A DNA stretch of 64,000 nucleotides, taken from the NCBI RefSeq assembly GCF_002737755.1, contig NZ_PEGH01000006.1, positions 1 through 64,000 on the forward strand. Reading direction: 5' to 3'. A model generated the notes under the pieces. It was not told the DNA's origin. It searched no databases and saw nothing but the letters and a program-made list of their open reading frames with translations. This DNA comes from Caulobacter sp. BP25. GTDB taxonomy: Bacteria > Pseudomonadota > Alphaproteobacteria > Caulobacterales > Caulobacteraceae. Shown in pieces: positions 28,952 to 37,530 of this stretch; the first letter of the stretch is position 1; the number at the start of each line of letters is the position of its first letter. The position numbers were made by a program, and so were the translations under genes.

Positions 28952-30364
28952 TCAGGCGTCGCGCCAGGCGTCGAGGTCCTTGAGCGCGCGCAGGCTCATC
29001 AGCCGCTTCTTGGCGCGGCCGCGTTCCTTCAGCGGGATCTTCTTGCCGTCCTCATCGACCTTGGGTGCTTCCAAGGGCGGGAGCAGGCCGTAGTTGATGT
29101 TCATCGGCTGGAAGCTGCCGGGGCCATTGCCTGCCTCCAGGTGACCGCCGGTGATGTGCTCGACGAGCGCGCCCAGGGCGGTGGTCGGCGGCGGGGCGTC
29201 GATCGGCGCGCCCCTGCGGTCGGCGGCGGCGAAGCGGCCGGTCAAGAGGCCCATGGCCGCGCTCTCGACATAGCCCTCAACGCCCGTGACCTGGCCCGCG
29301 AAGCGCAGGCGCGGCATGGCCTTCATCCGCAGCGACTTGTCCAGAAGCTTGGGCGAGTTGATGAAGGTGTTGCGGTGCAGGCCGCCCAGGCGCGCGAACT
29401 GGGCGTTCTCCAGGCCCGGGATCATGCGGAAAGTCTCGGCCTGGACGCCGTGCTTCAGCTTGGTCTGGAAGCCGACCATGTTCCACAGCGTGCCGAGAGC
29501 GTTGTCCTGACGCAGCTGCACGATGGCGTAGGCCTTGACCAGAGGATCGCGCGGGTTGGTCAGGCCGACGGGCTTCATCGGACCATGGCGCAGGGTCTCG
29601 CGGCCGCGCTCGGCCATCACCTCGATCGGCAGGCAGCCGTCGAAATAGGGGACGTTCTCCCACTCCTTGAACTCGGACTTGGGGCCGGCCAGCAGGGCGT
29701 CGATGAAGGCCTCGTATTGGTCCTTGTTCATCGGGCAGTTGATGTAGGCGGCCGCGTCGCCGCCCGGGCCTTCCTTGTCGTAGCGCGACTGGCGCCAGGC
29801 CTTGTCCATGTCGATCGAGTCGAAGTGGATGATCGGCGCGATGGCGTCGAAGAAGCTGAGCTGGCCTTCGCCGGTCAGGTCCAGGATCGCCTGGGCCAGG
29901 GCGGGCGAGGTTAGGGGGCCCGTGGCGACAATCACATTGTCCCATTCCACAGGCGGCAGACCGGCGATCTCCTCGCGGACGATCGTCACCAGCGGATGCT
30001 GCGACAGGCGCTTGGTGACCTCACCTGAGAAGCCGTCGCGATCGACGGCCAGGGCGCCGCCGGCTGGCACCTGGTGCTGGTCGGCGCAGGCCATGATCAG
30101 GCTGCCTAGCTTGCGCATTTCGGCGTGCAGCAGGCCCACAGCGTTGAACTGCCAATCGTCCGAGCGGAAAGAGTTGGAACACACCATCTCGGCCAGGCCG
30201 TCGGTCTGGTGCGCATCGGTGATGACTTTGCCGCTGGCGTCGTCTTTGCGCATCTCGTGCAGGATCACCGGCACGCCGCTTTGGGCGATCTGCCAGGCGG
30301 CTTCTGAGCCGGCCAGGCCTCCGCCGATGACGTGGATGGGCTGATAGGTCGCATTCGTGGTCAT
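28952..30364 (-). CDS. trmFO: tRNA (uracil-54-C5)-methyltransferase, folate/FAD dependent
   Basis: The 470-residue protein makes ribothymidine-54 in tRNA using methylene-tetrahydrofolate and FAD. The FAD-binding motif is [15 protein letters not shown] at residues 10-24. The two cysteines known in the family are Cys62 in [11 protein letters not shown] and the one in [14 protein letters not shown]. Further conserved text includes [18 protein letters not shown] and [11 protein letters not shown]. The length is normal. The ATG at 30364 was chosen because the conserved fold begins directly after it; the frame is open for 88 codons more upstream but without similarity. The neighbours are unrelated. 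Confidence 0.95.
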
Positions 30365-30463: not shown

Positions 30464-31402
30464 ATGGCGAGATTTGTGGTGGGCGAGGCGGCGACGTCGG
30501 GCTTTGGCGTCGTCGTACGGCATCCCCTGGCGGTCGTCGGATGGGCTCTGGCCTTTGTCATTGGCCTGATAATCCCGGCGCTGGTCGGGCTGTTCTGGCT
30601 GGGTCCCCAGTTTGCGCGCCTGATCCAACTGGCCCTGACCCAGACGGCCGGCGCGACGGATCCGGGCATGTTCGATGACTTCATGCAGGCGCAGTCCAGC
30701 GTGACCACCCTGAACTTGCTGTACTGGCTATGGTCCTCCTTCGTGCGCGCGGTTCTCTGCGCGGCGGTGTTTCGCGCCGTGCTGATGCCCGAGGCTTCGG
30801 CCTGGGCCTTTCTGCGGATCGGCGGGCGCGAGCTTTGGCTGACCTTGCTGTTCGTCGTCGAGCAGGTGCTGGCGATGATCGTCGTTTTTATCATTGGTCT
30901 GCTGATCATCATCCTGACGGCCATCGTCGCGGTCGGCGCCGGGGATCAGGGGCAGACGGCGGCGATCGCCGTGGCGGCTTCGACCTCGGCTATCGCGGCG
31001 GGCGTGCTGATCTGGGTGGCGTTGCGCCTGTCCCTGGCCGCGCCGATGACCTTCGCCGACGCCCAGTTCCGTCTGTTCGAGTCCTGGACCCTGACGCGGG
31101 GCCAGGGCTGGCGCCTGCTGGGCATGGCGGCTCTGGTCGTGATCTTCATCCTGCTGATGGAGATCCTGGTTCTGGCGGCGGCGTTCGGCGCCATCGTGGC
31201 GGCCGGAGGCTCGCTGGAGGCGATCCAGGGATCTGGCGCTCTGGAGGCCTTCATCACCCGGCCGCCGATCGCGATTCTGCGCGACCTCTGGCCCTGGCTG
31301 CTGGGATTGGGCGCGCTGTCGGCCGTGTTCAGCGCGGTGCTGCAGACGGTGTTCTGGGCGCCATGGGCCGCAGCCTACAAGGCCTTGACCGCTGAGGCCT
31401 AG
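30464..31402 (+). CDS. Polytopic membrane protein, paralog 1 of 4
   Basis: This 312-residue protein has about six hydrophobic segments and no signal for a known enzyme. Motifs shared with the next three genes are an N-terminal [22 protein letters not shown], a mid-protein [15 protein letters not shown], the [14 protein letters not shown] loop followed by [10 protein letters not shown], and a C-terminal [16 protein letters not shown]. The ATG at 30464 follows GGGGAGGGG. It is the first gene of a four-gene same-strand array. The function is unknown; the shared loop between helices is the likely functional site. Confidence 0.85.
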
Positions 31403-31479
31403 CAGCGCATCGCCTGGGACTTGGATTGTCCAGAGCGCGGCGACTCGCGAGTGCGGAACCGAAGGAGAAGATTGATCGG

Positions 31480-32235
31480 ATGGCGGACCGTTCGGCCAGG
31501 GTGGAAGGCGTGCTGATGGCTGGGTTTTCCGGCCTGCGCACCTCACTGGCGGCCTGCTGGGCGGCCCTGTTGGCGGCTGCGGCGCTGACGGTCGCGGCGG
31601 ACTTCCTGCCGGCTGTCGCGGGGCTGCTGGCGGGACTGATCGCGGTGGTTGTCGCGCAAGGGGCTCTGTTTCGCCATGCCTTCGGCCGGAACTCCGGCTT
31701 CAAGGGTCTGTGGTGGGGACGCGACGAGTGGCGGCTGCTGGGCGCGCATCTGATGATGCTGGGCCTGTTCCTGCTGATCGGCTCGATCCTGCTGGTGGTG
31801 GTCGCCGCCATCGCGCTGGGCGTCGCCCGCGTCAGCGCTCCGCAACTGGACGCCGGCACGGTGGAGGCCTGGCGCGAGGCGTTCGCCAGCGCCGGTCCGG
31901 CGGGCTGGGTCGCGGGACTCGCGCCGCTGGCGGCCCTGGCGATCCTGGTCTGGCTGGGCCTGCGCCTGTCATTCGCCGCGCCTGCCACGGTCGCCGAGTC
32001 CGGCGTGCGGGTGCTGAGCGCCTTTCCGCTGACCAAGGGCAAGGTCCCCATGCTCTTTGTCGCCGCCGGGGCGTTCGCCGCGCCGGTCGTCGTGGCCGCC
32101 ATGCTCGGCGTTTCGCCGTCCTCGCGGCTGGGAGCGGCGGTGCTGGCGGGTCTCACCTATCTATTCCTCGCGCCGGCCTGGTCTGGCGCGCTGGCTCATC
32201 TCTACCGCCAAAGCGCGGTCACGCAGGACGCCTAG
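31480..32235 (+). CDS. Polytopic membrane protein, paralog 2 of 4 (short form)
   Basis: This 251-residue membrane protein is the shortest and most diverged member of the array. It retains GFSGLRTSLAACWAA near the N-terminus, GLWWGRDEWRLLGAHL in place of the LRLG-E block, and RLSFAAPATVAES followed by LTKGKVPMLF. It lacks part of the segment between helices 1 and 2. AAGGAG lies at 31462-31467, a little far from the ATG. The TAG stop is directly followed by the ATG of paralog 3 (TAGATG), which points to one transcript. The function is unknown. Confidence 0.83.
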   Translation: MADRSARVEGVLMAGFSGLRTSLAACWAALLAAAALTVAADFLPAVAGLLAGLIAVVVAQGALFRHAFGRNSGFKGLWWGRDEWRLLGAHLMMLGLFLLIGSILLVVVAAIALGVARVSAPQLDAGTVEAWREAFASAGPAGWVAGLAPLAALAILVWLGLRLSFAAPATVAESGVRVLSAFPLTKGKVPMLFVAAGAFAAPVVVAAMLGVSPSSRLGAAVLAGLTYLFLAPAWSGALAHLYRQSAVTQDA

Positions 32236-33120
32236 ATGTCTGTTCGCCCCACCGACGCGGCTCTCGAGGGTCTTCGCACCATGCGGCGCAAGCCGCTGAC
32301 GGTGCTGGCCTGGGCGGCGTTCTCGCTGGTCATGCTGCCGATCCTGGGCTTGATCGCCAAGATCGTGCTGGGCGAGGAAGGCCGCGCGGCCCTGGCGGGC
32401 CGGGTGGGCTCGGCCGATCCGCGCGAGCTGCTGGACCTGGTCACTCATCTGGGCGGCACCATGTTGCTGCTGGTGGCCCTGGCCCTGGTGCTGGGCGCGG
32501 TGCTGCAGGCGGCGATCATCCGTTCGGTGATCCAGCCCGATAACGACCGCCTGGCCTATCTGCGGCTGGGCCGGGAAGAGGTGCAGCTGCTGATCGTCTC
32601 GCTGATCACCTGGGCGGCCGCCCTGGGCGTGACCGTGATCCCCTCGGGTGCGGTGGTTCTGGGCGCGGCCTTGCTGTCGGGCGCAGCGGCCGGCTGGTTC
32701 GCCACCCTGGGCGCGCTCGCGGTGATCGGCCTGTCCATGTGGGTCGCCGTGCGTCTCTCGCTGCTGGGCCCGCACGCCTTCTCGCACCACCACATCGACG
32801 TCCGCGCCGCCTGGATCCAGACCCACGGTCAGTTCTTCCGGCTGCTGGCGATGTTCGCCATGACCATCGTGCTGAGCGCCATCGTCTCGATCATCGGCAC
32901 GATCGTCTCGGGCGTGCTCGGCAACCTGATGAGCGGCGGCATCGACCCCATCGACGGCGGGGTGGTCTCAGGCCATCCAGGCCTGATCCTGACCCTGCTG
33001 GCCAACATGCTCTTGGCGCCGATCTTCCTGACCCTGCAGACCGTGATCCTGGCCTCGGCGCCCGCCAAGGCCTTCGCCCATCTGAACCAGGACGAGATCG
33101 ACGCGGGTCTGCACGACTAA
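32236..33120 (+). CDS. Polytopic membrane protein, paralog 3 of 4
   Basis: This 294-residue membrane protein shows the array pattern clearly. DAALEGLRTMRRKPLTVLAWAA is at the N-terminus and LAYLRLGREEVQLL near residue 110. VAVRLSLLGPHAFSHH, followed by THGQFFRLLA, lies near 180, and LQTVILASAPAKAFAHL is at the C-terminus. The His-rich HAFSHHHID loop is unlike the other copies. It starts on the base after the paralog 2 stop. An acidic C-terminal tail (NQDEIDAGLHD) is predicted to be cytoplasmic. No known family was recognised. Confidence 0.85.
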   Translation: MSVRPTDAALEGLRTMRRKPLTVLAWAAFSLVMLPILGLIAKIVLGEEGRAALAGRVGSADPRELLDLVTHLGGTMLLLVALALVLGAVLQAAIIRSVIQPDNDRLAYLRLGREEVQLLIVSLITWAAALGVTVIPSGAVVLGAALLSGAAAGWFATLGALAVIGLSMWVAVRLSLLGPHAFSHHHIDVRAAWIQTHGQFFRLLAMFAMTIVLSAIVSIIGTIVSGVLGNLMSGGIDPIDGGVVSGHPGLILTLLANMLLAPIFLTLQTVILASAPAKAFAHLNQDEIDAGLHD

Positions 33121-33205
33121 TCGGTCGAAAAGTCGCAAGCGGACTCTGTCGAAGCGCCGCGAACCTTGTTAGGGCTAGGGCCTGTCCGCAAAGCAAGAGT
33201 AAGAC

Positions 33206-34114
33206 ATGTCCAGGTTCTCGGCTTCCGACGCCGCCTTCTCCGGTTTTCGACTGGTGCGGGAGAACTTGAAGACCATCGCCATCTGGGCGGCGGTCATGAC
33301 CGTGCTGTCGATCATCTCCAACGTGCTGGCGATCCAGTTCTTCGGGCCCAAGCTTGAGGCCCTGATGTCCTACGTCTCCGACAACAGCAATCCCGATCCG
33401 GAGGAGTTCTTCCGCCGCGCCGCCGACCTGACGCCGCTGATGCTGTGGTCGCTGCCCTACAGCCTGATCGTCAACGGCGTGATCTTCGCGGCGCTCAATC
33501 GCCTGGTGCTGCGGCCGCAGGACAGCGGCTTGGCCTATCTGCGCCTGGGCAAGCAGGAGCTGCGTCAAGCGGCGGTCTGGGTGCTGACCAGCCTGATCCT
33601 GATGGGCGTGCTGTTCGTCGGCTCGCTGATCTCGGGGTTCCTGGGCGCCCTGGGCGGCCCCACCGGCGCTTTCCTGGCGCTGCTGGGCCTGGTCGGTTCG
33701 GTCTGTGCGATGATCTATCTGGCCGTGCGACTGTCCTTCGCACCCGCGGTCACCTTCGAGACCGACAAGGTGACGATCTTCAAGTCGCTGCCGGAGACCA
33801 AGGGCATCTTCTGGCGTCTGCTGGGCGCCTATCTGCTGGCGGCGGTGATGAGCATCATCGTCGTGCTGCTGATCTGGACCATCGTCTCGGCCGTTGGTCT
33901 CATCGCATCCGGAGATCTGGCGGCGACGGGCAAGATGCTGCGGGCCGACACCAGCTCCTTGCAGACCTATTTCACCCCGGCGGGCATCGTGCAGGCGCTG
34001 TTCTCGGGCCTGATCTCGATCCTGACCACGCTGATCGTGTTCGCCCCCGCGCCGACCATTTATCGCGAGCTGAAAGGCGGTTCGGCGGATCCGGCGCCCG
34101 GCGGCGGCTGGTAG
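33206..34114 (+). CDS. Polytopic membrane protein, paralog 4 of 4
   Basis: This 302-residue membrane protein begins FSASDAAFSGFRLVRENLKTIAIWAA. It carries LAYLRLGKQELRQAAV, YLAVRLSFAPAVTFETD with TKGIFWRLLGAYLL, and a C-terminal LIVFAPAPTIYREL. Its similarity to paralog 3 is the easiest to see, with the same spacing of all four blocks. The gap of 85 bp to paralog 3 could hold its own promoter or simply be an operon spacer. A Gly/Pro-rich tail ends the protein. The function is unknown. Confidence 0.85.
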   Translation: MSRFSASDAAFSGFRLVRENLKTIAIWAAVMTVLSIISNVLAIQFFGPKLEALMSYVSDNSNPDPEEFFRRAADLTPLMLWSLPYSLIVNGVIFAALNRLVLRPQDSGLAYLRLGKQELRQAAVWVLTSLILMGVLFVGSLISGFLGALGGPTGAFLALLGLVGSVCAMIYLAVRLSFAPAVTFETDKVTIFKSLPETKGIFWRLLGAYLLAAVMSIIVVLLIWTIVSAVGLIASGDLAATGKMLRADTSSLQTYFTPAGIVQALFSGLISILTTLIVFAPAPTIYRELKGGSADPAPGGGW

Positions 34115-34306: not shown

Positions 34307-37212
<2,906 letters not shown>

Positions 37213-37530
37213 GTTTTCCGGAACGTTGGGCCGCCCGATTGGTGGCGGCGCAGCGGCTATATGTAGGGCTCGGACCGCGAATTAACACAAGAACAAGATG
37301 CGAACAAATCTCCCGCGCGCGAGGCGAAGCTTCTGCTGACAGCGGATGTCAGCATGGTGGCCACTGGGCGCCCATTTTCGAGACCCGGCATGGTGCGGCG
37401 AAGAGAGGGCTAGGTCGCGCCTAGCCGTTTGCATTTCCTAAACCTTGTTTGGAAGCGGGTTCTTCAAGGACCGGTGCTTTACGGCTCCATCTTGGGTCGA
37501 GTTGAGGCCCGCCGGAGAGGGACTGGAGCC
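37213..37530. promoter_or_regulatory. uvrA upstream region with LexA (SOS) box at 37291-37305
   Basis: GAAC-AAGATGC-GAAC (37291-37305) is an exact match to the inverse of the Caulobacter LexA operator GTTC-N7-GTTC. It lies 79 bp before the uvrA ATG on the minus strand, in promoter position. The rest of this 318-bp gap, shared with the plus-strand mini-protein gene at 37531, has no credible gene. Confidence 0.8.

Follow-up and report, generated by a model that had tools for sequence, protein, structure and literature searches.

Genes A-D, which lie in tandem in the window (the whole 64-kb stretch of DNA that was analysed), form a real, old and conserved array of four paralogues within a known superfamily of membrane proteins, and they do so without an enzyme domain. 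By transitive profile evidence the four proteins are distant members of the GPDPase_memb/UPF0259 (YciC) superfamily. Homology, purifying selection and the conservation of the array come directly from the computation, as do a likely topology and a likely fold, the latter resembling that of CysZ and the CTL proteins. Both the four-paralogue array itself and the link of a large superfamily to this fold are new. The reading that we favor, with a probability of roughly 0.4 for it as a whole, is that the array consists of four ancient duplicates that would form membrane oligomers of CysZ/CTL type and bind anions or head groups, with B and C acting as a pair.

Four paralogous genes between trmFO and uvrA

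As the preliminary description had proposed, four consecutive plus-strand genes fill exactly the interval 30464-34114, and a whole-genome search finds exactly four family members, A-D. The genes and their flanks are as follows:

trmFO: 28952-30364, minus strand; conserved flank, divergent from A
Gene A: 30464-31402, plus strand; six-helix membrane protein of 312 residues (open reading frame and alignment)
Gene B: 31480-32235, plus strand; 251 residues, shortened and most diverged copy, with the R, G..E and RLS core retained
Gene C: 32236-33120, plus strand; 294 residues, ATG immediately after the stop codon of B
Gene D: 33206-34114, plus strand; 302 residues, structure modelled
uvrA: 34307-37281, minus strand; conserved flank, convergent with D

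B and C are -4 to +9 bases apart wherever their spacing was checked, and the A-B and C-D spacings range from 57 to 802 bases. In most Caulobacter loci C and D are separated by an antisense glutathione S-transferase (GST) gene (e.g. L031:7955-8677); it is missing from the C-D gap of the window (33121-33205) and from several other loci, where a short spacer is left, and the best GST match in the window genome lies at a different locus with 44% identity. The flanking uvrA carries a one-base shift near 35878 that divides it into two overlapping frames, and the 993-residue uvrA open reading frame of a close relative aligns at 98% on both sides of the shift, which may reflect either faulty assembly or a genuine break.

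The pairwise identity of B, C and D to A is 28-30%. When D is the sole query against the same genome, C (4.5e-20) and A (5.2e-17) are recovered but B is not. When one orthologue group is omitted, the profile of the other three still detects it, at 9.6e-39 for A, 3.8e-40 for C, 1.8e-51 for D and 5.7e-7 for B. No reversed or shuffled sequence reaches significance against these profiles. The paralogy that had been proposed for A-D is therefore real, with B as the distant member, detected most weakly and shortened in two loops. Residues invariant in all four proteins occur in the same order and are spread along the entire chain (D numbering: G13, W27-A28, R99, G115, E118, R175-L-S177, T198 and G200), comprising the end of TM2 (R99), an LxxG..E block (G115, E118), the RLS motif (R175-S177) and the T-x-G motif (T198, G200). 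The exact strings first read from the sequence are consensus-like in the alignment of A-D. Of the LAYLRLGxxEL block, LAYLRLG is literal in C and D and in no other copy; in the N-terminal region G13 and W27-A28 are present in all four copies, but the arginine of GxR is missing in A. Across the family R99, G115, E118 and R175 occur in at least 90% of members as well as in all four window copies, with R99, E118 and R175 retained in 96-98%, and G13 is found in 81%.

Conservation and age of the array

In an ML tree of 113 copies the sequences fall into clades that correspond to their place in the array, with support of 100/100 for A and for B, 100/99 for C and 96/98 for core D, so that the Caulobacter copies make up four position-specific orthologue groups; the deeper joins of this tree are long-branched and unsure. 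Array order is stable over 15 Caulobacter genomes, and the nearest named matches to the array proteins are from Caulobacter. Ratios of dN/dS against two near relatives are 0.22-0.23 for A, 0.27-0.33 for B, 0.09-0.10 for C and 0.11-0.14 for D, values (0.09-0.33) that indicate purifying selection on all four genes and hence that all are maintained. The suggestion that the array is old yet kept together agrees with these data, with copies that are strongly diverged and grouped by position across Caulobacter genomes, a conserved locus, and selection acting on every copy.

The family is matched in 116 of 119 Caulobacteraceae genomes and in all of the 105 of good quality, with 1 to 8 copies per genome, and B and C are missing from some relatives. 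Nearly every Caulobacterales locus retrieved has its family members, one or several, at the trmFO-uvrA junction. Family f3 and several genera have a single copy only; in f3 trmFO is kept and the uvrA position is taken by a different gene. Class-wide, 51 of 190 sampled alphaproteobacterial genomes contain a match, a count that includes Caulobacterales members. Among 20 regions inspected outside Caulobacterales, five have a member adjoining uvrA, at a distance of 0.5 to 7 kb from trmFO, and in two others the member adjoins trmFO; the presence of family members at trmFO/uvrA beyond Caulobacterales argues that the location is ancestral and vertically inherited. The order uvrA-family gene-trmFO (L195, L196, L197, L201, L206) spans several alphaproteobacterial families and is unusually old. 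Relatives holding single scattered copies only would have spoken against the array as first described; most carry between 1 and 8 copies at that locus, although single or scattered copies also occur.

These distributions bear on whether the four proteins work together. It is plausible, at somewhat less than even odds, that each forms an independent homo-oligomer that has diverged in substrate or expression (subfunctionalisation), the genes having stayed adjacent only because a quiet locus was inherited vertically, with no joint complex formed. The variable sets of 1 to 8 copies, the sufficiency of a single copy in family f3 and several genera, the loose A-B and C-D spacing with an antisense GST gene that can separate C from D, and the second locus with an additional copy in some genera are all in keeping with such independence, whereas B and C, which are always adjacent, coupled and co-occurring, and the stable array order in the 15 Caulobacter genomes are less readily accommodated by it. 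Variation in the copy sets, including the absence of B and C from some relatives, likewise argues against one obligate four-part complex.

Relationship to the GPDPase_memb/YciC superfamily

Pfam and NCBIfam scans of A-D place no protein over any threshold, and NCBIfam and PHROG scans return no usable family. Single sub-threshold Pfam matches to Colicin_V, DUF4212 and DUF3671 were rejected as identities. The best PF10110 (GPDPase_memb) score in the window is that of C (14.7 bits, against a cut-off of 29.6), and weak PF10110 matches occur in 12 of 74 array members (best E 6.2e-5), the overlap between PF10110 and the array profile falling in the loop region before TM5 that carries R-L-S and T-x-G. 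The link is strengthened by another alphaproteobacterium (G276), in which two proteins match the array profile (2.4e-28 and 8e-22) and also PF10110 over its cut-off. Comparison of the family profile by hhalign with standalone PF10110-matching proteins gives 99.4% (5e-22), with UPF0259 (PF06790) 88% (E 3.2e-6; reversed control 0.1%), and with the membrane domains of GDPD-fused enzymes 46% (2e-4), reversed controls for these superfamily comparisons being at most 0.6%.

A-D score below the PF10110 gathering cut-off and are thus placed as superfamily relatives and not in PF10110 proper. They are homologous to GPDPase_memb by these linked searches but differ from it in standing in a tandem array and in having no GDPD (glycerophosphodiester phosphodiesterase) domain, their 251-312 residues corresponding to the membrane part alone. 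Likeness to UPF0259/YciC extends to a standalone membrane protein of about 250 residues, homologous by hhalign, although the PF06790 model itself has no match in the window genome at E 1e-3. The preliminary description had recognised no described system with this layout, and had regarded assignment to a characterised transporter family as the result that would count against it; profile searches assign none by sequence, but relatives do exist in the GPDPase_memb/YciC superfamily. This superfamily is widespread in bacteria. Literature searches on YciC or GPDPase_memb turned up no functional study, and those on the C. crescentus tags beside uvrA (CC_2590/CCNA_02673) turned up none that describes the adjacent genes.

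Predicted structure and comparison with CysZ and CTL proteins

The AlphaFold2 model of D, built with 12 sequences, is of moderate confidence, with a pLDDT of 73.7 and a pTM of 0.63; the model of B (pLDDT 51) is too poor for use, so that the fold of B is read from the alignment only. The closest structures to the D model are those of CysZ (Z 13.5, 12.5 and 11.6; best match 225 residues at 4.4 Å), human CTL1 (Z 13.2; 249 residues at 5.6 Å) and yeast PNS1 (Z 12.3), with alignments spanning 209-260 residues, and the next match, which is unrelated, has a Z of 6.7. Helical models often attain middling scores in structure comparisons, and it is the gap between these matches and the next, at 6.7, that makes the fold match credible. 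The array proteins are accordingly predicted from the model to share a CysZ/CTL-type fold; we know of no earlier description of a link between the GPDPase_memb/YciC superfamily and the CysZ-CTL fold group, and found none in the literature searched. Among solved structures, sequence searching gave only chance-level matches, to a designed bundle and to a subunit of a photosystem, and most Foldseek matches, such as those to ABC exporters and GPCRs, were set aside as long-helix matches (TM 0.25 or less).

In the model D is built of three helix units (unit 1: 6-19, 21-58, 76-102; unit 2: 108-112, 116-147, 151-186; unit 3: 194-197, 202-235, 258-291), each consisting of a short cytoplasmic helix followed by two membrane helices. 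Profile comparison of units 1 and 3 gives 54-69% (1e-4 to 4e-5) over their length (reversed, 5%), and the profile of unit 2 aligns roughly in register, which is not significant; a threefold repeat within the fold is therefore supported for units 1 and 3, and we infer it for unit 2. Net charge is positive at the N-terminus and in the loops TM2-3 and TM4-5, and negative in the other inter-helix loops. Under the positive-inside rule these loop charges place the N-terminus, the C-terminus and all conserved motifs in the cytoplasm, although the C-terminus, which is not net positive, counts against this predicted topology. The near-invariant residues R99, G115, E118 and R175 would consequently lie at cytoplasmic helix ends.

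CysZ crystallises as antiparallel dimers and as a hexamer and binds sulfate (PMC5967866), and the similarity between PNS1 and CysZ has been noted before (PMC13160678). The array resembles CysZ/EI24 (PF07264) in predicted fold over nearly the whole D model but differs from it in sequence, hhalign giving 0.5%, the same as the reversed control. The dual topology of CysZ also contrasts with the charge bias of the array proteins, which suggests one fixed orientation. Human CTL1 and yeast PNS1, the CTL/SLC44 matches to the predicted fold, differ from the array proteins in being eukaryotic and longer (362 and 422 modelled residues).

The resemblance raises the possibility that the array is a set of CysZ-like permeases for sulfate or phosphate-type anions that substitute for a CysZ missing from the genome. 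PF07264 has no match in the window genome, EI24/CysZ being found in 35 of the 76 sampled genomes of the class, and with the fold of the D model and the positively charged cytoplasmic loops this absence would be consistent with such a substitution. However, hhalign detects no homology to EI24; the GLR motif for sulfate is poorly conserved, the putatively equivalent residue (R15) being arginine in 40% of members and, in the family alignment, glycine in A and serine in B; and EI24 and a family member coexist in genomes such as G163 and G158. The unconserved GLR arginine and the co-residence of both families make a plain sulfate permease less likely. Furthermore, the transport role of CTL proteins is disputed, and in oocytes they showed neither choline nor ethanolamine transport (PMC13160678), which argues that the fold is no predictor of permease activity. 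Taken together, an anion permease array appears very unlikely.

A model for the function of the array

In the preferred reading A-D would be anciently duplicated six-helix inner-membrane proteins that represent the GPDPase_memb/YciC membrane domain without its enzyme. The conserved Arg and Glu residues that cluster where the membrane meets the cytoplasm may bind small anions or anionic head groups, and by analogy with CysZ (PMC5967866) the proteins may oligomerise in the membrane, so that the array would serve inner-membrane lipid or solute homeostasis. B and C, which are always coupled (-4 to +9 bases), would form an obligate co-translated pair, while A and D may be specialised partners or parallel homo-oligomers.

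Mixed oligomers and four separate homo-oligomers are the two most economical readings of the array, and we hold them to be close to equally likely. A specific form of the hetero-oligomeric membrane complex raised as possible in the preliminary description, an inner-membrane one with CysZ/CTL-like subunits, a B and C core and specialised A and D, seems rather unlikely; the sole positive pointer to a hetero-oligomer is the hint given by the tight coupling of B and C. To our knowledge the CysZ/CTL-like fold has so far been found only in homo-oligomers or monomers. Were the hetero-oligomer correct, the GPDPase_memb/YciC superfamily would join the CysZ-CTL fold group and the array would provide a multi-subunit version of the fold. 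The fold link and a conserved array in a genetically tractable genus together offer a direct route to testing the function of the superfamily; as at least one copy is present in every good Caulobacteraceae genome examined, a function found there would likely be general for the family.

Neighbouring genes and second-locus copies

Genes beside family members in relatives point to the envelope, though the GST, SPFH and CPBP neighbours are not decisive. In six genomes of one Caulobacteraceae genus (L226:117-5834, L219:5439-10999, L222, L223, L228, L230) the second-locus copy stands behind a conserved gene that, where scanned, is Band_7/SPFH, a neighbour that fits a role in membrane organisation; the large gene also beside it is TPR-like by weak matches only (L226). 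In family f4, genes for CPBP-type intramembrane proteases, identified only from motifs in their sequences, are interspersed with copies in the interval from uvrA to trmFO, and in G129 a CPBP-like gene lies beside family copies (loci L056:5541-8492, L062:5331-8228 and L233).

Such neighbours would fit a role as membrane chaperones or microdomain proteins that act with SPFH/Band_7 and CPBP-protease partners in the quality control of membrane proteins or lipids. No partner of this kind accompanies the main array of the window, however, and the associations are confined to few lineages and could be coincidental, which leaves this role quite improbable. In one of the six genomes (G131) the second-locus copy (L230:4725-5687) is divided by an in-frame stop into two pieces and is possibly a pseudogene.
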